A stretch of DNA of 30,515 bases from a virus, in IMG/VR virus record IMGVR_UViG_3300010885_026724, positions 1 to 30,515 of that record. One strand, 5' to 3'. The notes below the pieces were generated by a model that worked only from the letters and a program-made list of their open reading frames with translations, was not told the origin of the DNA and searched no databases. Within the stretch, counting starts at the first letter, position 1, and every line of letters starts with the position of its first letter. Made by a program: the position numbers and the translations under genes. This document shows positions 4,545 to 26,282 of this stretch, one piece after another.

Positions 4545-5453
4545 ATGAAAGAAAAAGTAAACAGAAACGACATCGGAATTATTGTGGCGAGATTTATGGT
4601 TCATGAGCTTCATGAAGCACATAAAGACCTTATTCAAAGTGTCATTGATCGTCATGAACGAATTATTATCTTTCTTGGGTGTTCTCCTTTACGTAACACA
4701 TTAAACGCTCCTTTAGATTTTAAACATCGTGCGGCAATGATCCATGATGATTTTCCTGATGTAGAAGTTCACTATGTTGATGATAATCGTAGTGATGAAG
4801 TTTGGTCAGCAAATCTTGACAGACAAATTGCTAAATGGTCCGCCCCCGGTCAAACCGCTACTCTATACGGTTCCCGTGATAGTTTCCTTAAACATTATAA
4901 AGGTAAGAATCCTACATGTGAACTTGAATCAGAGATTTTTATTTCGGGTTCACAAGTCCGTAAAAGCATTATTGTTAATTATCCGTCATCTAAGGATTAT
5001 CGTGCGGGTGTTATTGCTGCTACAGGGCAGCACTATCCTACGGCATATCAAACGGTTGATATTGCTATTCTTAATGAAGATGAAACAGAACTTCTACTTG
5101 CTAAAAAACCCCGTGAAGCAAAATGGCGCTTTGTAGGAGGTTTTAGTGACCCCCGTAGCAATAGCCTCGAAGAAGATGCACGCCGCGAAGTTCAAGAGGA
5201 AACAGGTATTGAAATCTCTGATCCTAAATATATTGGAAGCACTAAGATTGATGATTGGCGTTTCCGTGGTGAAAAGGATTGCATCAAAACGGCATTCTTC
5301 TCTGCCAAATATTTATTTGGTAAACCGGAAGGGGCTGATGATGTAGAAGCTGTAAAATGGTTCAAAATTGATAGCCTCACTCCGAGTGATTTCGTCTATG
5401 AACATAATGTTTTGTGGAAGATGTTTACTAAAAAATTCGATTGGAAGCACTAA
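4545..5453 (+). CDS. nadM: Bifunctional NMN adenylyltransferase / Nudix hydrolase
   Basis: This 302-aa enzyme should join NMN and ATP to make NAD+ (N-terminal domain) and hydrolyse an ADP-ribose-like nucleotide (C-terminal Nudix). Residues 11-26 (GIIVARFMVHELHEAH) hold the nucleotidyltransferase HxxH-type site and ISGSQVRKS (133-141) the second ATP motif. The Nudix box is about 199-221 and ends REVQEETGI; N207 replaces the usual first Glu of the box. The architecture matches phage KVP40-type and cyanobacterial NadM-Nudix proteins. The last residues (WKH) come from a 71-bp duplicated segment read in another frame, so the native C-terminus was probably replaced. It works with the NAMPT gene downstream. 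Confidence 0.95.
   Translation: MKEKVNRNDIGIIVARFMVHELHEAHKDLIQSVIDRHERIIIFLGCSPLRNTLNAPLDFKHRAAMIHDDFPDVEVHYVDDNRSDEVWSANLDRQIAKWSAPGQTATLYGSRDSFLKHYKGKNPTCELESEIFISGSQVRKSIIVNYPSSKDYRAGVIAATGQHYPTAYQTVDIAILNEDETELLLAKKPREAKWRFVGGFSDPRSNSLEEDARREVQEETGIEISDPKYIGSTKIDDWRFRGEKDCIKTAFFSAKYLFGKPEGADDVEAVKWFKIDSLTPSDFVYEHNVLWKMFTKKFDWKH
5232..5302 (+). repeat. 71-bp direct repeat, copy 1 (inside nadM Nudix domain)
   Basis: An exact 71-bp copy of this segment recurs at 5440-5510, 208 bp downstream. Here it encodes residues 230-253 of the nadM product (IGSTKIDDWRF onward). Begins ATTGGAAGCACTAAG and ends GGCATTCTTCTC. Confidence 0.97.
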
Positions 5454-5510: not shown

Positions 5511-5660
5511 GATTATAGTGTCAATCATAAGATATACATATCCGCCAGAGGATATTCAGCAGTATTAATTAATTCACAAGGATTAAAGAAAATAAAAGAT
5601 AAAATAACACAATTAAAAATACCTTACTTAGAAAGAAAATGGAACAATGAGCAGACTTAA
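5511..5660 (+). pseudogene. Headless remnant of an unidentified gene
   Basis: Directly after repeat copy 2 there is an open stretch of 49 codons without a usable start, beginning DYSVNHKIYISARGYSAVL and ending ERKWNNEQT before a TAA at 5658-5660. It overlaps the first 14 bases of the NAMPT gene, as an authentic upstream gene in this genome would. The residue pattern looks like true protein, so it is probably the 3' end of a gene whose front was removed by the event that created the 71-bp repeat. I cannot assign a family. Confidence 0.55.
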
Positions 5661-7044
5661 ACATAATATCATTTTAAATAGCGATTGCTATAAATATACT
5701 CACTGGCTACAAATTCCGAAAAAGACCAGCTTCATGCATACTTATGTAGAAGCACGGGGCAGTTCTATTGAAGGAATTGATTATACTCGTCCTTTTGGTT
5801 ATCAAGGTTTCTGCATGGATTATCTTGTTGGACAAGTCATTGAAGAATGGATGATTGACGAAGCAGTTGAATTGCTTGGCGAAGTTTTCCAAACTCATGA
5901 ATATTTTAATGAGAAAGCTTTCCGGCATTTGCTTTCCGAACATGGGGGCAAGTTACCAATCACTGTTCGTGCAGTTGAAGAAGGCAAACGAGTTGGATTG
6001 AAAAACGTTCTTATGAGCGTTGAGGCAGAAGGTGAAGAATTTGCATGGCTTGCTCCGTGGATTGAAACAATGCTCTTACGTGCCGGATGGTATGGTACTA
6101 CAGTTTGTACTGTTAGTAGTGTCATTAAAGATATGGAAAAGAAATATAGTGCTATTTGTGGTGGCCCTATGAATATCTGTTTCTTAAATGATTTCGGTGC
6201 GCGGGGAGTTTCTAGCCATGAATCGGCTGAAATTGGAGGCGCAGCACACCTTGTAAATTATTATGGAACGGATAATATGGAAGGTTTGCGATGGGCAAAA
6301 CATCGTTATGGAAAATGTGCAACGGGTTATTCGGTTTTTGCTTCTGAACATAGCACAACCACTATCTATACTAAAGCAGGTGAAGTTAATGCTTATACAC
6401 ATTTCTTAACTACTGTTCCTAGTGATAAGATTATTTCGATTGTACCAGATTCCTATGATTACGAGAATGCTGTTCGTAATATCTTTGGTAAGATTTTAAA
6501 AGAATTAATTCTTTCTCGTTCGGCACCTACCGTGGTTCGTCCTGACAGTGGCGATCCTGTCACAATGGCAGTGTTGACCCTTAAATGGCTATGGGAAGAT
6601 TTTGGTGGAACAACCAATGAAAAAGGGTTTAAAGTTTTGAATCCTAAAGTTCGTGTCATTTACGGGGATGGTATTAATTTACAATCTATTGATACGATTC
6701 TTCAAGCGGTTATCGCTGCCGGATTCAGTATTGAAAATATCATCTTTGGTATGGGTGGTAAACTCCTTCAAGGTGTTGATCGTGACACCTTTAAGTTCGC
6801 TTGTAAGCTGTCTTATGCGATTGTTGACGGTCAACCTGTTCATATCTTCAAAGACCCTATCACCGATCATGGTAAGAAATCTAAATCGGGTTTGCTTAAA
6901 TTGATTATTAAAGATGGTGTATATCAGACGGTTCAACGTCATGAATACCCTGAATTGAAAGATGAACTTGACATTATCTTTAAAGATGGTAGTCTAGTGA
7001 AGACTCTGACTTTTGATCAGATTCGCAAAAACGCAGAAAACTAA
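5647..7044 (+). CDS. nadV: Nicotinamide phosphoribosyltransferase (NAMPT)
   Basis: This 465-aa type II phosphoribosyltransferase should convert nicotinamide and PRPP to NMN, the substrate of the NadM domain upstream. Recognisable segments are SDCYKYTHW (12-20), GARGVSSHES (184-193), YGTD209, SEH235ST (phosphorylated histidine of NAMPT), VVR298PD300SGDP (PRPP/nicotinamide site) and VIYGDG341-342. Length fits NAMPT (about 460-490 aa) rather than nicotinate phosphoribosyltransferase. With nadM it forms the two-step NAD+ reconstitution route known from phages, which restores NAD+ after depletion by host defences. Upstream DNA is AT-rich with no convincing ribosome-binding site. Confidence 0.96.
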   Translation: MSRLKHNIILNSDCYKYTHWLQIPKKTSFMHTYVEARGSSIEGIDYTRPFGYQGFCMDYLVGQVIEEWMIDEAVELLGEVFQTHEYFNEKAFRHLLSEHGGKLPITVRAVEEGKRVGLKNVLMSVEAEGEEFAWLAPWIETMLLRAGWYGTTVCTVSSVIKDMEKKYSAICGGPMNICFLNDFGARGVSSHESAEIGGAAHLVNYYGTDNMEGLRWAKHRYGKCATGYSVFASEHSTTTIYTKAGEVNAYTHFLTTVPSDKIISIVPDSYDYENAVRNIFGKILKELILSRSAPTVVRPDSGDPVTMAVLTLKWLWEDFGGTTNEKGFKVLNPKVRVIYGDGINLQSIDTILQAVIAAGFSIENIIFGMGGKLLQGVDRDTFKFACKLSYAIVDGQPVHIFKDPITDHGKKSKSGLLKLIIKDGVYQTVQRHEYPELKDELDIIFKDGSLVKTLTFDQIRKNAEN

Positions 7045-10712: not shown

Positions 10713-11885
10713 ATGGAAACTAGCGAGACTATTAATTTTAAATTTACTAGAGGACTAATCACTCAAGAACAAGCATTAATTATGCTCAAGGAAAGGTATC
10801 CACGAACACCGTTCATGTATTGTGTTGATGCTAAACAATTCTATAAAAAAACCCTATGTTTACAATCCCCGCCTTCAGGAAATTGGTACTATAATAGATG
10901 GAGTTTTTGTGATGTGTGGCGTAAAGACGGGAGCCGTATATACGTTCATAGTGACGATATACAGTCTATATCTTTCTATTGCCGATGCTCCGATAAACAT
11001 TATCATTCTGATGATTTTACGCCAATTGAATGTGACGGTGAAAAAGTGTGTTTGGAACACTGTAGAGATAAAATCGAATTAGATAACGGTGTCTATTATT
11101 ATAAAATAATCGTAAACGATGATAATGTTGATGATTCAGGACGTTCGCCCTACCATTCTGTAAAACGTCTAAGTTCGCGCCATCAAGGGATAGGCGTTGA
11201 ATTGGAACTGGAATGTCATTCAGATATTTGGAATTTTTGTGACAAGGCTAGAAGTTTTGGAATCTTTGCAGAAGATGACGGTTCTCTCGACGAAGAGACG
11301 GGAGTTGAATTAATTGGGCCTATTGCACCATTTGAAGATTATGTTAAATGGAAACATTGGGGGCCAATGTTTGATATTTTCAAAGAACACGACTGTATAG
11401 GACATGATGCAGATGGTGATTATGGTATCCATGTGTCTTTATCTCTTTCACTTTTTAGTGATTTGGACTTGTCTAAATTTGTTTTATTCTTTAACACTTG
11501 TTCAAGATTATGTAAGATTGTTGCACAACGAGACACTATTTATAGTGGCTCATATGGTTGTCAACGTGAGCATAAACGTTTTAAAAAGACATTTACTGAT
11601 AAATATGAAGCAGTTAAGGTGGATGCTGTTCGGGCAGAAGTTCGCATCTTCCGTTCCACTATTCGTAAAGATCGTTTCTTGAAGAATATTGAGTTTTGTG
11701 AGGCAGTTCGCCATGCGGTAAAAACAATGTCAGCAGGTACTGTTTTACGACAAGCAGAAGCAGAAAAAGCATTCTTAACTTTCCTCACTAAGGAAAGAAA
11801 AACTTATCCAAATTTGTATAATTTCCTTGCCGAGAATAAATTGGTTGTGTCTAAAAAGGTGCAAAATAAAAATATCAAATCTTAA
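10713..11885 (+). CDS. GS-fold amidoligase A1 (Amidoligase_2-like) with Cys/His-rich N-domain
   Basis: This 390-aa protein matches the Amidoligase_2 family, ATP-dependent carboxylate-amine ligases with a glutamine-synthetase fold. The core holds GIGVE163LE165, DDGSL (188-192), GVE199LIGP, YGIH240VS and E309VR311IFR314. Before it lies a Cys/His-rich module (FYC90RC92, H96xH98, C107, C113, C117) that may bind zinc and perhaps the substrate. It heads an operon with a subtilisin-like protease and a small basic peptide and has no glutaminase beside it, unlike A2 and A3. It may use a free amine or peptide amine instead of ammonia. Family call firm; substrate unknown. Confidence 0.88.
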   Translation: METSETINFKFTRGLITQEQALIMLKERYPRTPFMYCVDAKQFYKKTLCLQSPPSGNWYYNRWSFCDVWRKDGSRIYVHSDDIQSISFYCRCSDKHYHSDDFTPIECDGEKVCLEHCRDKIELDNGVYYYKIIVNDDNVDDSGRSPYHSVKRLSSRHQGIGVELELECHSDIWNFCDKARSFGIFAEDDGSLDEETGVELIGPIAPFEDYVKWKHWGPMFDIFKEHDCIGHDADGDYGIHVSLSLSLFSDLDLSKFVLFFNTCSRLCKIVAQRDTIYSGSYGCQREHKRFKKTFTDKYEAVKVDAVRAEVRIFRSTIRKDRFLKNIEFCEAVRHAVKTMSAGTVLRQAEAEKAFLTFLTKERKTYPNLYNFLAENKLVVSKKVQNKNIKS

Positions 11886-11911: not shown

Positions 11912-12892
11912 ATGCCCGACCCTCAAACTTCTCTACCAGTTTATACGATACATGATGTGGGTGATATTGAAACCCTAAGTCAGATTTATCCACAAAATAT
12001 CATTGCGCTTGATATTCCTAGACTATGGACTAAAACTAAAGGAAAAGGGGTAATTGTTGCCGTATTGGATACAGGTATCCACACTCATCCTGATTTGGTA
12101 AAAAATATTGATATTTCAAAATGTCGATCATTCATTCCAAATGAAGATATATTTGATAATACTGTTGGGCACGGTGTTCACTGTAGCGGAATTATCGCGG
12201 CACAGAACGATGAACAAGGGGTTGTAGGCATTGCGCCCGAAGCAACGATTGTCAGTGTCAAAGTGCTTGATAAGAACGGCAGAAGCCAAGGAAATAGCAT
12301 TGTAGAGGGATTAGAGTATTGTCACAAACTCCAACCAGACATTATCAATCTTTCATTGGGAAATATATCTCCTATGCCAGATGCATATGAAGTTATTAAA
12401 AGATTGGTTAAAAATAATATAATAGTTGTTGCGAGTGCAGGTAATAATGGAACAGAAGGGATATTGTACCCTGCTGCATATGATGAAGTTATTGCAGTAG
12501 GATCATATAGCAACTCTACTATAAAAGACCGATCATTGTTTTCCTCATATGGGGATGCACTAGATATTATGGCTCCCGGTGAAGAAATATTTAGTACGTT
12601 CTTAAATGGACAATATTGTGTCATGTCTGGTACTTCGATGGCATGCCCACATATTTCTGGAGTCATTGCTTTATTAATAGCATATTATAAAAAATCTAAT
12701 AAGATTTTAACAGTTGATGATATTCGCAAGCTATTATTAACCACTGCTAGTGATATTGGTAAAAAAGGGTTTGACAAAGAGAATGGATGGGGTATAATAG
12801 ACCCTGACAGATTATTTGATAATCTACCTGCCGAAATCGCAATTAAAAAACCCTCTTTTTGGCAAAAAATTAAACTATTTTTTAAACGATGA
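11912..12892 (+). CDS. Subtilisin-like serine protease (S8), no signal peptide
   Basis: This 326-aa protease has a complete S8 triad: D53 (VLDTGI), H87 (GHGVHCSG), S242 (SGTSMACPH), with oxyanion N178 (SAGNNG). There is no signal peptide and no long propeptide (about 45 residues before the core), so it should act in the infected cell's cytoplasm, like intracellular subtilisins. A short basic C-terminal tail (FWQKIKLFFKR) may touch membrane or nucleic acid. It sits between amidoligase A1 and a 46-aa peptide gene that overlaps its stop codon (ATGA), so it may mature that peptide or an A1 product. The protease call is firm; the target is inferred. Confidence 0.94.
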   Translation: MPDPQTSLPVYTIHDVGDIETLSQIYPQNIIALDIPRLWTKTKGKGVIVAVLDTGIHTHPDLVKNIDISKCRSFIPNEDIFDNTVGHGVHCSGIIAAQNDEQGVVGIAPEATIVSVKVLDKNGRSQGNSIVEGLEYCHKLQPDIINLSLGNISPMPDAYEVIKRLVKNNIIVVASAGNNGTEGILYPAAYDEVIAVGSYSNSTIKDRSLFSSYGDALDIMAPGEEIFSTFLNGQYCVMSGTSMACPHISGVIALLIAYYKKSNKILTVDDIRKLLLTTASDIGKKGFDKENGWGIIDPDRLFDNLPAEIAIKKPSFWQKIKLFFKR

Positions 12893-16400: not shown

Positions 16401-16741
16401 AAATTGTTATTAATGATTGTAATGGAGAGTTTAGTCTTTCCGAAGAAGCCGTTAGCCAATATGCGGCTAGAAGGAATCTTATTCTTTATATGAAAAGAAT
16501 TCCCACAGAATGTATCTACTTTACTAAACCAAAAGATTTACGTAAAGATGCATACGATGGTATATGGGAACCGAAACGGCATATTCCCCGTTTTGATATG
16601 GTATTAGTTGACATTGTTGAAAAGATGGGTAAAAAAGCAAATACCATTTATTCAAAACTTATTGTTAAAGAAGTTGACACCGACTCCAAATGGTCTATAG
16701 TAGAGGATGACGGTAAAGAATGTATTGTATATGACACATAA
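16397..16741 (+). CDS. Conserved phage-type protein (MKIVINxxxGxFxLS family)
   Basis: The 114-aa product starts MKIVINDCNGEFSLSEEAV and later has RFDMVLVDIVEKMGKKANTI and WSIVEDDGKE. I recognise this arrangement from widespread hypothetical phage proteins, but know of no function. A GAGGT lies 1-5 bases before the ATG, too close to be a normal ribosome-binding site; ATGA overlap with the upstream gene suggests coupling. The 3' end carries the promoter of amidoligase A2. Confidence 0.82.
   Translation: MKIVINDCNGEFSLSEEAVSQYAARRNLILYMKRIPTECIYFTKPKDLRKDAYDGIWEPKRHIPRFDMVLVDIVEKMGKKANTIYSKLIVKEVDTDSKWSIVEDDGKECIVYDT
16674..16701 (+). promoter_or_regulatory. Promoter of amidoligase A2 inside the preceding gene
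   Basis: TTGACA (16674-16679), a 16-bp spacer and TATAGT (16696-16701), then 5 nt (AGAGG) to the ATG at 16707. The spacing predicts a leaderless mRNA beginning at or next to that ATG, which supports 16707 rather than the in-frame ATG at 16731 as the start. Confidence 0.7.
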
Positions 16742-18386
16742 TCTAATTCTTAAAGACATTTTAGCATTTGTTCTCGCTCAAGACGATAACAAGACTGTTC
16801 GCTATGGTGGGCAAGGACTAGATAGTTTACTGGCACACTATGTAACTTCTAAGATTGACCAAAGTATTCATAAAGTAATATTTGCAGGATATTATTCTGT
16901 GAAAGTAGATACTGGTGATTACTGGAATTCAGATCATTGGTTCTCACAAGAAGATGATATTCCGTTATTCCTAATTAAAATTGATAAATGCACAACTTAT
17001 AAACAGATTAAAGAATTAATTGATACACCTATGAACCTTACAAAAGAGCAAGCGCATATCTTGGAGATTGCTAATAAGACACATAATAACGGCGAAGTTA
17101 ATATACACCGCGCCTTGCAATTGGTTAATAGCATTTTTTCGCCAGATGATAAGAGAGAAGCAGTGTATGTACGTGATGCGCGTAGAGCAGAACGGATTCA
17201 AATCTATAATCCATCTATCCATCATTATGATATTTTTACACAACAGTATTGGCAAGATTCTTCTACTTTTATCAAAATTTATCGTAAAAATGGTTCTTTC
17301 TTTCTCGGAAGCGAAGAATACATAAGTGATGATATATGCTTTTATTGTAAATATAAAAGAAAATGGTATTATAAAGAGGATTATACATGTATTGTGTGTG
17401 AGGGAGATATGCTTTGCTTGGAAGCAAATATCAAGCGGGTATTTCTATGGAGTGATGGTACATATCGTTATAATAAACAAGGTGACGATGTTCCAACGGC
17501 ACCTGAACGTTGTTCTGTTTCAGGATATCATTGTGCGTCTCGTCCGTCATGGTGGAGACATGCCGTAGGAATTGGTATGGAATTGGAAATTAATTGTTCT
17601 GATCGAGATAAACTAGCAAGCATGCTATCTGCTGACATTCTTACTGAACGAGACGGGTCTTTGAGTGACCGTACTGGAGTTGAATTGATTGGCGGGCCTT
17701 ATACTTGCGAAGATTATCAAAAAGGTAAAACTCCATGGAATGAGACTCTTAATCATATTAAGAAAATTGGTGGAGAGGGGCATAATGCAGGCACCGGATA
17801 CGGTATCCATCTATCTATTTCTCGTTCTCTTTTTACCACATTACATGCTGCTAAATTTATTGTTTTCTTTAATCAACAATCTACTCTTGTTAAGTTAGTG
17901 GCGCAGCGTGGCACTATCTATAGTGGTCATTATGGCACTCGTCTTAATGTCACTAATACCGTGGTTGAAAAACTTGATTTAAACGGGTACGATCATGTTC
18001 AGCAACGATGCAACAAAAAAACCAAAATAGTACAAACTGGTAAATATGAACCTGTATTTGCAGATAATAAAAGATTAGAAGTTCGTGTTTTCCGTTCTAA
18101 TCTTCGATGGGAACGTATTTTGAAAAATGTTGAATTTGTTCAAGCAGTGTTTGACTTCACTCGCGATTGTGGTATTAGTGTAATAGCTGACACCTACAAA
18201 GGAACACCAGCTTTTCTTGAATGGTTACAACGTCAAAACGATTTCAAAACTTTAAAAGAATTCCTACACGAATCTAAAAATAAGAAATCATTTACTATTG
18301 ATACTACTTCCGTCACTAATAATACACTGTTGGAAACTTTCACCTTCAAACCTAAAACCCCACAGTCATCTGTATCTGAACAATAA
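16707..18386 (+). CDS. GS-fold amidoligase A2 (Amidoligase_2-like) with long N-terminal region
   Basis: At 559 aa this is the longest of three amidoligases. The core starts near residue 288 with GIGMELEINCSD, then ERDGSLSDRTGVELIGGPYT, GYGIHLSISRSLFTT and EVRVFRSNLRWER: the acidic, His-Ser and Arg motifs of the GS-like ATP-binding fold. An upstream CFYCKYKRKWYYKEDYTCIVC segment parallels the Cys-rich module of A1; the first ~200 residues are unlike A1 and A3 and may bind the substrate. The partner is the stand-alone glutaminase G1, 2 bases downstream, which should deliver ammonia. Predicted reaction: ATP-dependent amidation of a carboxylate. The substrate is unknown. Confidence 0.88.
   Translation: MTVKNVLYMTHNLILKDILAFVLAQDDNKTVRYGGQGLDSLLAHYVTSKIDQSIHKVIFAGYYSVKVDTGDYWNSDHWFSQEDDIPLFLIKIDKCTTYKQIKELIDTPMNLTKEQAHILEIANKTHNNGEVNIHRALQLVNSIFSPDDKREAVYVRDARRAERIQIYNPSIHHYDIFTQQYWQDSSTFIKIYRKNGSFFLGSEEYISDDICFYCKYKRKWYYKEDYTCIVCEGDMLCLEANIKRVFLWSDGTYRYNKQGDDVPTAPERCSVSGYHCASRPSWWRHAVGIGMELEINCSDRDKLASMLSADILTERDGSLSDRTGVELIGGPYTCEDYQKGKTPWNETLNHIKKIGGEGHNAGTGYGIHLSISRSLFTTLHAAKFIVFFNQQSTLVKLVAQRGTIYSGHYGTRLNVTNTVVEKLDLNGYDHVQQRCNKKTKIVQTGKYEPVFADNKRLEVRVFRSNLRWERILKNVEFVQAVFDFTRDCGISVIADTYKGTPAFLEWLQRQNDFKTLKEFLHESKNKKSFTIDTTSVTNNTLLETFTFKPKTPQSSVSEQ
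17571..17734 (+). repeat. Duplicated amidoligase core segment, copy in A2
   Basis: Two blocks identical to A3 at the DNA level, 17571-17619 (49 bp) and 17672-17734 (63 bp), lie at constant offset (+2201). They encode GIGMELEINCSDRDKLA and the TGVELIGGPYTCEDYQKGKTP region. Sequence between and around them has diverged. Confidence 0.93.
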
Positions 18387-18388
18387 TT

Positions 18389-19225
18389 ATGTGCTTACTT
18401 ATTCTTAAACCTCAAGGAAAAACAATTCCTACTAATTTTCTTGAAAATGCTCACCAGAGTAATCCACATGGTTGCGGTGTTGCCGTGGCTCGTAATGGCA
18501 AAATTAAGATTGAAAAATCTGCAAGATGGAGTGCTGATGAAGTTAATAAAGTGTTAGCATCTAATGTTGATGCTCCTGCTATTGTTCATTTTCGATGGGC
18601 AACGCATGGCAGTAAGACATTTGATAATACACATCCTTTTAAATTGAATGATAATTGGGTAGCCGCTCATAACGGTGTTATTCCCTCTGTTCAGACAGAG
18701 GGCGATGAAAGCGATACACGCGCATTCTTGCGTCAACATGTGATGCCATTGCTAGAAGTAGGTGTACGTCTTGATGATAATGATATTCTAACTATGTTAG
18801 GAAAATCTATGGGTAATGCAAATAAAATGACTTTCCTATCTGCGGATGGAAGTTATGGAATTGCTAACGAAACTGCGGGGCATTGGCGAGACGGTGTATG
18901 GTATAGTAATAATTCTTATCTTGATTATACACCCCCTGCACGCTCATGGAGTCCCCGCTCTAAGCATAGAACTCATTCATGGTCTAGTTGGGACGAGGGG
19001 GAACAACATGATGTTTATTTCTCCGATAACTTTAAACGCCCCCGCAAAGGTACTAAAGGTGTTCCCTTTGCTACCGAAGATGATGATCTTTATGAAGAAG
19101 CATGGCATACTTTTGATATTACATCGTTGTGGTGTGATAATTGTAATCAGCGTGTTATTGAAGAATTTAGAATTGAATCTCGTTCGGGGTTGTGTTACTG
19201 CCACCGTTGTTATGATCAAATCTAA
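18389..19225 (+). CDS. Stand-alone class II glutamine amidotransferase G1 with C-terminal Zn ribbon
   Basis: This 278-aa Ntn-type glutaminase carries nucleophile Cys2 directly after Met, then HFR69WATHG, THPF (H82), AHN95G96 and ESD109TR, the residues that bind and cleave glutamine in GlmS and PurF. It has no synthase domain, so the ammonia must go to a partner, here amidoligase A2 just 2 bases upstream. The C-terminus carries a likely zinc ribbon (C249DNC252 and C271HRC274), perhaps for docking. Initiator Met removal should expose Cys. G2 is its duplicate. There is no ribosome-binding site, and translation probably depends on the upstream gene. Confidence 0.93.
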   Translation: MCLLILKPQGKTIPTNFLENAHQSNPHGCGVAVARNGKIKIEKSARWSADEVNKVLASNVDAPAIVHFRWATHGSKTFDNTHPFKLNDNWVAAHNGVIPSVQTEGDESDTRAFLRQHVMPLLEVGVRLDDNDILTMLGKSMGNANKMTFLSADGSYGIANETAGHWRDGVWYSNNSYLDYTPPARSWSPRSKHRTHSWSSWDEGEQHDVYFSDNFKRPRKGTKGVPFATEDDDLYEEAWHTFDITSLWCDNCNQRVIEEFRIESRSGLCYCHRCYDQI

Positions 19226-19227
19226 GG

Positions 19228-19255
19228 TTGACTTATCTATTTTTTAACGTAATCT
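19228..19255 (+). promoter_or_regulatory. Sigma70-type promoter of the A3-G2 unit
   Basis: TTGACT (19228-19233), a 16-bp spacer and TAATCT (19250-19255), 9 nt before the ATG at 19265. Starts 2 nt after the G1 stop codon. The second module therefore has its own promoter. Confidence 0.65.
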
Positions 19256-19264
19256 ACACCTGTA

Positions 19265-20620
19265 ATGAATACATTAACTATTCTTCAAAATGCTTTGCTG
19301 GCGAAAGATATTTCTCAAGCTAAAGCCGTTCGCTATGCTAATCATCGCCTTGGTGGTGATTGGGCAGTAGCGCAAGATACTAAACGTTTAAGTGAGAAAG
19401 ACTGCCTTATTGTAGATTTACATGGGGGTTATCACGAAACAACCAATGCATTATTAAAAGTTCGTATTTCTGCTACACGCACAGCAGGAACAGCATGGGT
19501 TTCGGCTGTCAAATTCCATCGCGGAATGTTGCCAGATATTTATACTTGTCAACTTACACATGAATTAGTATCTGAAGCATACATACCTCGTTTTACGGTT
19601 ATTAATCAATATAACGAAAATATCATTGTAGCAGGTTCTTATTGTGAACGGCAAGGATATATTTTTCGTTGGCTTGATGGGTCATATCATACTATAAGGC
19701 AACCTGAAGCAAGAACCGTTCGTAATTACCATTCGGATAATCGCCCCCGTTGGTGGAGAACTGCACAGGGTATTGGTATGGAATTGGAAATTAATTGTTC
19801 TGATCGAGATAAACTAGCAACTAAACTTCATTCAGAAATTCTTGCAGAACGAGACGGTTCTCTTGATTCATATACTGGAGTTGAATTGATTGGCGGGCCT
19901 TATACTTGCGAAGATTATCAAAAAGGTAAAACTCCGTGGGAGCAAACATTAACTACCATTAAAGATATTGGTGGAGAGGGTCATGCTGCCACAGGTGGAT
20001 CAAATTTCTACGGAATCCATCTATCTCTTTCCCGTTCATTATTTACCACTTTCCACGGTGCTAAATTTGTAGTGTTCTTTAATCAGCAAAAGCAACTTTG
20101 CCAACTTATCGGTCAACGTTCGACTCTTTATGGAGTTATTAATAGTTCCGGTTACGAAATTCGTAAGAAGGTAAAGGATGTAGTATATTTCAGTGGTGCT
20201 GATCGCGATAAAACTACTATTCATTCACATATCCAAGGGGATGTTCGTGATAAAATTACAAGTAAAAATACTTCATACTACAGTGAAACCTCTAAATATG
20301 AACCTGTCCGAGTTGATGATAAACGTTATGAAGTGAGAATTTTCCGCTCTAATCTTCGATGGGAACGTATTCTAAAAAACGTTGAATTTGTAGATGCTGT
20401 AAAGGAATATACAAGGGATGCGTCTGCATCGTCGGTATCTACTCCCTATACGGGAACGGTTGATTTCTTATATTGGCTAGGTAAACAAGCGGGTTATACG
20501 CACCTTAAAGCCTTCCTTGTTGACAATGCTGCTAACTTCGACGATAGTAAAAACTCCGAAGATTTTAAACAACGGGTCAACTTCAAACTAAACAAAACGC
20601 TCACTACGACTGATCTATAA
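19265..20620 (+). CDS. GS-fold amidoligase A3 (Amidoligase_2-like)
   Basis: This 451-aa paralogue of A2 has the same core: GIGME173LE175INCSD, ERDGSL (195-200), GVE207LIGGPYT, YGIH252LSLSRSLF and EVRIFRSNLRWER, then a C-terminal helix. Parts of the core are identical to A2 in DNA, while the N-terminal 165 residues differ; they keep only a trace of the Cys module (YTC95...SYC127) and so probably recognise a different partner. Between the core motifs lies an insertion (about 300-345) absent from A1. It is followed 1 base later by glutaminase G2. Expected to amidate a carboxylate using ammonia from G2. Confidence 0.88.
   Translation: MNTLTILQNALLAKDISQAKAVRYANHRLGGDWAVAQDTKRLSEKDCLIVDLHGGYHETTNALLKVRISATRTAGTAWVSAVKFHRGMLPDIYTCQLTHELVSEAYIPRFTVINQYNENIIVAGSYCERQGYIFRWLDGSYHTIRQPEARTVRNYHSDNRPRWWRTAQGIGMELEINCSDRDKLATKLHSEILAERDGSLDSYTGVELIGGPYTCEDYQKGKTPWEQTLTTIKDIGGEGHAATGGSNFYGIHLSLSRSLFTTFHGAKFVVFFNQQKQLCQLIGQRSTLYGVINSSGYEIRKKVKDVVYFSGADRDKTTIHSHIQGDVRDKITSKNTSYYSETSKYEPVRVDDKRYEVRIFRSNLRWERILKNVEFVDAVKEYTRDASASSVSTPYTGTVDFLYWLGKQAGYTHLKAFLVDNAANFDDSKNSEDFKQRVNFKLNKTLTTTDL
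19772..19935 (+). repeat. Duplicated amidoligase core segment, copy in A3
   Basis: Contains 19772-19820 and 19873-19935, identical to 17571-17619 and 17672-17734 in A2. The high DNA identity is confined to the catalytic core. Confidence 0.93.
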
Positions 20621-20621
20621 T

Positions 20622-21563
20622 ATGTGTCTATTACTTTTTAAACCTGCTGATAAAATTGTCCCCGATAAACATTTAGTTATTGCTGACAAAAATAATCCAC
20701 ATGGATGCGGTATAGCAGTAGCTATGGGTGATAAAATTATCATCGAAAAGGCTCCATCATGGGGTGCAGAGGAAATTATTAAATTGCTTGCTAAATATGA
20801 GGGGCATCCTGCTATTGTTCATTTTCGTTTTGCTACACACGGTAGCAAAAACGTTGAAAATACCCATCCATTTCGTTTAAATGAAGAATGGGTAGCCGCT
20901 CATAACGGAGTTATTTCTAATGTAAAAACCCTTCATGATGAAAGCGATACACGGGCATTTCTTCGTTTAAATGTTATTCCTATTTTAGAAAATCAATGGA
21001 AACTAACTGATGACGATGTAATTAAATTACTTGCTCAAGAAATGGGAGTAGGTAATAAAATGACATTCATGGATAAAACTGGCAATATTGCTATTGCCAA
21101 TGAGGATCAAGGTCATTGGAAAGATGGTATTTGGTATAGTAATCATGGTTATGGTGCTTGTAATTATTACGGCATGGATGACGATTATGATTATGAACAG
21201 GCATATTGGGATAGTCGGGCATATCATGGAAGTACTAATTATCACCCTGTTACCCCTGCTAGTTCTACGTCACGTTTTAGTGCATTTGGGCGTGTTATCG
21301 AAGAAGATACCGTTTCGCCACCTGCATCCTCTCTAATGGTGCTCCCTGACAAGGTAAACAGTTATAAAGAGAACTGGATGGTGATGGATACGCTTAATAC
21401 GTTCTGTGATTGCTGCCATGAACAAATTTGGGGGGCATATGCACTAGAAAGCACTAATAATATGATTGTGTGCCAAGATTGCTCTAGGTTTCTACCTAAC
21501 TCATTAAATTTACCTAAATCATTTAAAAGGGATTCTATTGAGATAAATGCAATGAAAAAGTAA
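20622..21563 (+). CDS. Stand-alone class II glutamine amidotransferase G2 with C-terminal Zn-binding motif
   Basis: This 313-aa paralogue of G1 keeps all key residues at the same positions: Cys2, HFR69FATHG, THPF (H82), AHN95G96 and ESD109TR. Compared with G1 it has a longer linker after residue 180 with aspartate- and tyrosine-rich stretches (YYGMDDDYDYEQAYW) and a Cys cluster (C262DCC265, C284QDC287) followed by a 26-residue basic tail. It directly follows A3 and should be its ammonia donor. Linker and tail differences between G1 and G2 suggest pairing specificity. Confidence 0.93.
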   Translation: MCLLLFKPADKIVPDKHLVIADKNNPHGCGIAVAMGDKIIIEKAPSWGAEEIIKLLAKYEGHPAIVHFRFATHGSKNVENTHPFRLNEEWVAAHNGVISNVKTLHDESDTRAFLRLNVIPILENQWKLTDDDVIKLLAQEMGVGNKMTFMDKTGNIAIANEDQGHWKDGIWYSNHGYGACNYYGMDDDYDYEQAYWDSRAYHGSTNYHPVTPASSTSRFSAFGRVIEEDTVSPPASSLMVLPDKVNSYKENWMVMDTLNTFCDCCHEQIWGAYALESTNNMIVCQDCSRFLPNSLNLPKSFKRDSIEINAMKK

Positions 21564-25784: not shown

Positions 25785-26282
25785 ATGAATTTCTCTTGTT
25801 CCGATTGCTGCCCTAATACAGAAACTTGTTGTAATTGCCAAGATTTAACCAATTGCTCCGATTGTAATTATTGTTATAATTGTAAGAATTGTGGAGTATG
25901 TACTCTATGTGATTTCTGTAATGACAGTTCATATTGTTACTCATGTTATTATTGCGATGAATGTTTTTATTGTTATGGTTGTAAAGACTGTAAATTTACT
26001 ACCAATGCCATCTTTTGTAAAAAGGTTATATATAGTTCATTTACTATATTTTGTTTAGATATTGAACGCGAATCTTATAAAGCATTTAACAAGTCTGTAA
26101 AATTACAAAGATATAAAGAAATTGTAGAAGAAGTTATTAGAATTCTTCCTAATTGGCAGCATTGTGCTGTTGCAGGATTCTGGCAATCTGTTAATGTTCG
26201 TCAATGGAAAGCACTGATGGTTATTCCAGAATTTGACAGAGATATTGTTGAACAAATTACCAAAATTGAAATCCCTATTTAA
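25785..26282 (+). CDS. Cysteine-repeat (xxC)n protein
   Basis: The 165-aa product has about 21 cysteines in its first 72 residues, many in runs of a tripeptide xxC: SDC NYC YNC KNC GVC TLC DFC and, after a short break, YSC YYC DEC FYC YGC KDC. Spacer residues are mainly Tyr, Asn and Asp. The remaining 90 residues are an ordinary globular domain (VIRILPNWQHCAVAGFWQ). The period recalls beta-helical or pentapeptide-like coils with Cys stacked in one ladder, or a multi-metal/disulfide scaffold. Without a signal peptide it would be cytoplasmic, which favours metal binding over disulfides. Function unknown. Confidence 0.85.
   Translation: MNFSCSDCCPNTETCCNCQDLTNCSDCNYCYNCKNCGVCTLCDFCNDSSYCYSCYYCDECFYCYGCKDCKFTTNAIFCKKVIYSSFTIFCLDIERESYKAFNKSVKLQRYKEIVEEVIRILPNWQHCAVAGFWQSVNVRQWKALMVIPEFDRDIVEQITKIEIPI

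Follow-up and report, generated by a model that had tools for sequence, protein, structure and literature searches.

Does a phage gene pair made up of an amidoligase and a glutaminase act as a single enzyme, and if so, what does it modify? The question is raised by a locus in which two such pairs follow one another. It lies in the window, the whole stretch of DNA analysed here, which is an entire IMG/VR record of 30,515 nt and probably represents only part of a larger phage. The ORF call for the first amidoligase, A2, spans 16707-18386 on the + strand (559 aa). After 2 nt comes G1 (18389-19225, +; 278 aa), a stand-alone class II glutaminase with a cysteine at position 2 and a CxxC...CxxC ribbon at its C-terminus. 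A further 39 nt separate G1 from A3 (19265-20620, +; 451 aa), a paralogue of A2, and a single nucleotide separates A3 from G2 (20622-21563, +; 313 aa), a class II glutaminase paralogous to G1 that ends in the same kind of ribbon. The initial annotation had described two amidoligases, each followed 1-2 bases on by a glutaminase, and the + strand ORFs agree with it exactly. The A2 start could instead be 16731, because a start at 16707 gives a 35-nt overlap with the preceding ORF and has its GAGG sequence directly against the ATG.

The window also holds a third amidoligase paralogue, A1 (10713-11885, +), which is solitary and has no adjoining glutaminase. A subtilase-family (Peptidase_S8) gene at 11912-12892 begins 26 nt after it. 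Elsewhere, positions 25785-26282 encode a small protein that consists mostly of dense cysteine repeats (CxxC and alike) and has no Pfam match. A simple scan placed a Shine-Dalgarno-like sequence upstream of 3 of 36 gene starts in the window; so few hint at a host with Shine-Dalgarno-poor initiation, for example one of the Bacteroidota or cyanobacteria. A reading of the locus as a defence system was rejected after a PADLOC scan gave no match.

Protein families and active-site residues

A2 comprises a unique N-terminal part (residues ~1-180), a Cys-rich, zinc-ribbon-like segment (~213-238) and an Amidoligase_2-type core (~288-525). The amidoligases contain the motifs GIGMELE (E-x-E), DGSL, GVELIGG, YGIHLS and EVRxFRS. 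When A2 and A3 were searched singly, neither had a match in Pfam, NCBIfam or PADLOC scans, and A1 scored 14.4 bits against Amidoligase_2 (PF12224), under the gathering cut-off of 22. All three match an unnamed phage family, phrog_16683. Because A2 and A3 lack a Pfam or NCBIfam match of their own, any claim about their fold needs profile-profile evidence. In an hhalign comparison, a profile of A1-A3 matched an alignment of PF12224-matching relatives with a probability of 98.9% (E 1.5e-17); those relatives match PF12224 itself at about 1e-6 to 1e-11. The residues G-x-E-x-E, DGS, E, G-x-H, S, R, Y and E-x-R are invariant in nine of nine divergent amidoligases, A1-A3 included. Judged by these comparisons, A2 and A3 are divergent Amidoligase_2-type proteins.

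A glutamine-synthetase-like fold is predicted for A1-A3 by homology to the family, which is filed under that fold. The prediction draws on homology rather than structure because the structure models proved unusable: AlphaFold models of A2 and G1, built from alignments of 3-4 sequences, had pLDDT values of 37-38, too poor for use. A Foldseek search with the A2 model (pLDDT 37) returned no significant match; glutamine synthetase appeared at rank 10 with E 0.43, which is not evidence. A profile of the amidoligases likewise found no relative of solved structure. The initial annotation had placed A2 and A3 among GS-fold amidoligases. Its motifs are present and the family assignment holds at the profile-profile level, but Pfam and NCBIfam searches with either protein singly did not make the placement.

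G1 and G2 both exceed the Pfam GATase_4 cut-off of 23 bits (25.6 for G1 and 32.3 for G2), and they are 42% identical over 290 residues. Met1-Cys2, R69, T72, H82, N95-G96 and D109 are invariant in all 15 aligned glutaminases. A profile of this alignment matches the glutaminase domain of GlmS (1xff) with E 2.9e-13, aligning R, HNG and D with the known glutamine-pocket residues of GlmS. G1 and G2 keep the glutamine-binding and catalytic residues of GlmS, and we predict that both are glutaminases. Neither has a synthase domain. The earlier description of class II glutaminases with a full catalytic set and no synthase domain is borne out by the GATase_4 scores and the 15-sequence alignment.

In the ligases, the cores are conserved and the N-termini are not. 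A2 and A3 are 52% identical over a core of 324 residues, and A1 is 36-40% identical to its paralogues. Nothing similar to A2 residues 1-244 could be detected in A3, whose own N-terminal part is unrelated and lacks CxxC pairs; the two N-terminal domains do differ, as the initial annotation had it. Among relatives, the N-terminal parts range from ~30 to 440 residues and are seldom alike, whereas the cores align. Variable N-termini are, by this comparison, a general feature of these amidoligases, and they would be compatible with target-recognition domains.

This pattern bears on what the enzymes modify. The N-terminal and zinc-ribbon-like parts could aim each pair at a host or phage protein, a tRNA or another RNA, with the two pairs differing in target. 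The variation of N-termini among paralogues and phages around a constant core fits such a role. So do the CxxC-rich segments that precede the core in many amidoligase relatives, and the C-terminal CxxC...CxxC that G1 and G2 have in common with the glutaminase of the IMG/VR contig L018. However, zinc ribbons may merely serve docking between the two proteins or their stability, and the A3 N-terminal part has no CxxC pairs at all. We regard a protein or RNA target as doubtful. A fully modular system for amidating proteins or RNA, with a fixed core re-aimed by exchangeable N-termini and spread by whole-pair duplication, seems less probable still. If it were real, a single phage could have several distinct amidation targets.

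Conservation and duplication of the pair

The initial annotation had proposed a genome-context search for the same pair, the absence of which from related phages would speak against a joint function. We checked phage records with a G homologue singly and then scanned them with iterated profiles; G was the query, so the tally is conditional on finding G. An amidoligase gene is followed by the glutaminase gene on the same strand in MEP401, MEP402, Marvin, two Manatee Spring phages, two faecal contigs, C75C1, a Christensenellales phage, both pairs of Acinetobacter phage 313, StenR_269, Bifidobacterium phage BA720P3 and L018, and likewise on a mycobacterial plasmid. The two genes overlap by 10 nt at one extreme and lie ~1.1 kb apart at the other; most spacings are below 100 nt. 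In an IMG/VR sample, the amidoligase lies upstream in 25 of 27 G loci (25 of the 26 with upstream sequence), loci that are not independent because most are MEP401 relatives. The other two comprise one locus cut by the contig end and one without an amidoligase. Twenty-three of the 27 are MEP-like and retain the 10-nt overlap even where GATase identity falls to 47%; the remaining two A-G loci have gaps of 78 and 514 nt. The amidoligase thus precedes the glutaminase in nearly every relative, and the objection from lack of co-occurrence fails.

A few loci depart from this arrangement. In halovirus ChaoS9, the gene upstream of a glutaminase relative shows, by eye, motifs like those of amidoligases but scores an E of only 0.4. 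No amidoligase was found in the examined stretch of Bifidobacterium phage BP742P1. On Leisingera and Natrinema plasmids, two distantly related class II GATases lack an amidoligase match nearby and probably serve another function. Scans with the window proteins returned one relative, L018, from viral contigs and none from species genomes. Separately, one IMG/VR contig (L059:1-2204) has exact 120-nt end repeats and holds only a Marvin-type glutaminase and amidoligase, which would fit either a tandem A-G array that has collapsed or a small circle.

Amidoligases also occur alone, as A1 does in the window and as does a gene of a C. difficile phage (L029), which shows that the ligase does not always need an adjoining glutaminase. 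At that C. difficile phage locus (L029:4737-6926), the solitary Amidoligase_2 gene is followed by one for an RlaP-type RNA-repair nucleotidyltransferase. Some Amidoligase_2-type enzymes are predicted to be amine or peptide ligases. A could therefore join two organic substrates in a peptide-like ligation, while G worked independently as a glutaminase or another Ntn hydrolase. We consider this separation unlikely, given that order and adjacency are kept across very divergent phages, that the MEP group retains its 10-nt overlap and that the pair has been co-duplicated twice.

The evidence for co-duplication comes from trees of the core regions. A2 and A3 are sisters (support 0.989) within a clade that includes A1 (0.998), and G1 and G2 are likewise sisters (0.993). 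In Acinetobacter phage 313, the members of its two pairs are sisters for both A and G (1.000 each). The two gene trees agree in both the window and phage 313, so the whole pair has been duplicated at least twice, independently. A2 (17571-17734, +) and A3 (19772-19935, +) share a near-identical DNA stretch, 87% identical over 164 nt, with exact tracts of 49 nt and 63 nt. Where these tracts fall, in two 30-codon blocks, 86-88% of the shared amino acids use the same codon, compared with 25-71% in other core blocks, which suggests local gene conversion between A2 and A3. By NG86, dN is 0.43 and dS 1.13 in the A core, against 0.57 and 1.52 in G; dS is close to saturation, and the values indicate purifying selection and nothing further.

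The conserved order of A then G supports a two-subunit, glutamine-dependent, ATP-driven amidotransferase, and we think it probable that each pair forms one. In such an enzyme, G, an Ntn-type class II glutaminase with Cys2 made catalytic by removal of the initiator methionine, would hydrolyse glutamine. A, the glutamine-synthetase-like amidoligase, would activate a carboxylate with ATP and amidate it with the released ammonia, perhaps passed within a physical complex and through an ammonia channel. Once a tandem duplication in this phage lineage had copied the whole pair, the cores would have been kept while the ligase N-termini diverged or were swapped, most simply for two targets or for two variants of one. 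Different substrates for A2 and A3, as the initial annotation suggested, would fit this course of events. Its idea of a split amidotransferase likewise gains from the conserved pairing and order, the protein families and the intact glutaminase residues, all read from sequence. As a gene module the pairs are real and well supported, and the chemistry is plausible; their function is a proposal. Conserved pairing and order, together with at least two independent duplications, sharpen what was a loose prediction into the hypothesis of a two-subunit enzyme that can be put to the test. The tandem copies have their cores in common but unrelated N-termini, and so also offer a built-in comparison for mapping target choice.

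Candidate targets and known phage modules

If each pair is such an amidotransferase, its target would most likely be the carboxylate of a host peptide or gamma-glutamyl-type compound, for example a cell-wall stem peptide. A specific form of this explanation is that the phage modifies host peptidoglycan, by amidating a stem-peptide carboxylate or forming a gamma-glutamyl or isopeptide linkage, and so blocks superinfection or alters wall processing. Two phages carry a glutaminase fused to a gamma-glutamyl cyclotransferase (GGACT) with an amidoligase upstream (L007:5001-6218 and L008:5001-5897), an arrangement that fits gamma-glutamyl chemistry. The halovirus is harder to reconcile with a wall target: its Halobacterium host has no murein, although the gene upstream of its glutaminase relative is too divergent to count as an amidoligase. 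The zinc-ribbon-like segments, for their part, would point rather to cytoplasmic protein or nucleic-acid targets. A modification of peptidoglycan has been hypothesized for related phage genes, for example in accounts of phiEco32/RIO-1-type cassettes (PMC10580990, PMC5498523, PMC11318856, PMC11945000), where it is itself a prediction. In the window, a fragment, there was no match to GGACT/GGCT (PF06094), none to ATP-grasp among the proteins scanned (all but a few small ORFs) and none to the COOH-NH2 ligase (PF14395) in a search run without a positive control. Because these genes gave no match, the cell-wall reading rests on analogy, and we think it possible rather than likely.

The window also contains a NAMPT gene (5647-7044; Pfam NAPRTase and NAMPT_N) next to one for a Nudix-domain protein whose N-terminus resembles an NMN adenylyltransferase by eye (4545-5453). 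Their proximity suggests a phage NAD salvage pair. In Acinetobacter phage 313, too, NAMPT lies a few genes from one A-G pair, so the amidotransferase might conceivably act in pyridine-nucleotide metabolism, on a nicotinate-type carboxylate. NAD salvage genes are common in large phages, however, and of the 15 records examined, almost all with A-G genes, only two contain NAMPT. We set this most improbable link aside on the strength of that count.

The initial annotation had offered the locus as an undescribed system, a claim that does not survive comparison with the literature. According to PMC10580990, PMC11318856 and PMC11253131, Iyer et al. 2009 had already predicted that phages combine an amidoligase with a class II GATase. 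Annotations of the pair exist for MEP401/402 and Marvin as well as for phages of the LUZ24/RIO-1 type (PMC10580990, PMC5498523, PMC3890496), and related phage genes are described in PMC5498523, PMC3890496, PMC11318856, PMC11253131 and PMC11945000. PMC10580990 places the pair in OM43 phages; it traces the idea of a role in superinfection, put forward for phiEco32, to Iyer et al. 2009, and an idea involving a secondary metabolite to the Marvin paper. The pair turns up in phages with widely different hosts. In these papers it is usually read as a cell-wall modification module; its function is given as a prediction, and the passages on the genes report no enzyme test. A search of the open-access literature turned up no description of an A-G-A-G tandem.

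MurT is a Mur-ligase-type enzyme and GatD a class I-type glutaminase, so the MurT-GatD pair is not homologous to the A-G pair. The two are alike in outline, as a co-transcribed ligase and separate glutaminase that yield a carboxamide (PMC3267633). The glutaminase domains of GlmS and PurF share with G1 and G2 the Ntn class II type and the Cys, R, HNG and D residues; unlike them, G1 and G2 have no synthase domain and neighbour a separate GS-like ligase gene.

Among phages, the peptidoglycan cassettes of the phiEco32/LUZ24/RIO-1 type also combine an amidoligase with a class II GATase and are described as lying among early or replication-region genes (PMC3890496, PMC5498523). They additionally contain genes for an ATP-grasp protein, for a COOH-NH2 ligase or second amidoligase, and for GGCT, whereas the window, as a fragment, gave no GGCT match and its scanned proteins no ATP-grasp match. 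The Methylophilales phages MEP401 and MEP402 resemble the window in having an amidoligase (PF12224) and an adjoining, stand-alone GATase (PF13522). Their amidoligase N-terminus is likewise long and variable, and the genes are reported as AMGs (PMC10580990). They differ in carrying a single copy with a 10-nt gene overlap, and their proteins are only 20-30% identical to those of the window. Mycobacteriophage Marvin (gp105-gp106) and its mycobacterial plasmid homologues show the same order, with CxxC-rich segments in both proteins, but Marvin has one copy and a gap of ~80 nt. Acinetobacter phage vB_AciJM_313 also has two different A-G pairs, each gene sister to its paralogue; these are not in tandem but ~13 kb apart on opposite strands, one of them in the repeated genome ends. 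The window carries a known phage module in duplicate, and its local twist is the tandem duplication of the whole pair together with the unrelated N-termini of A2 and A3.
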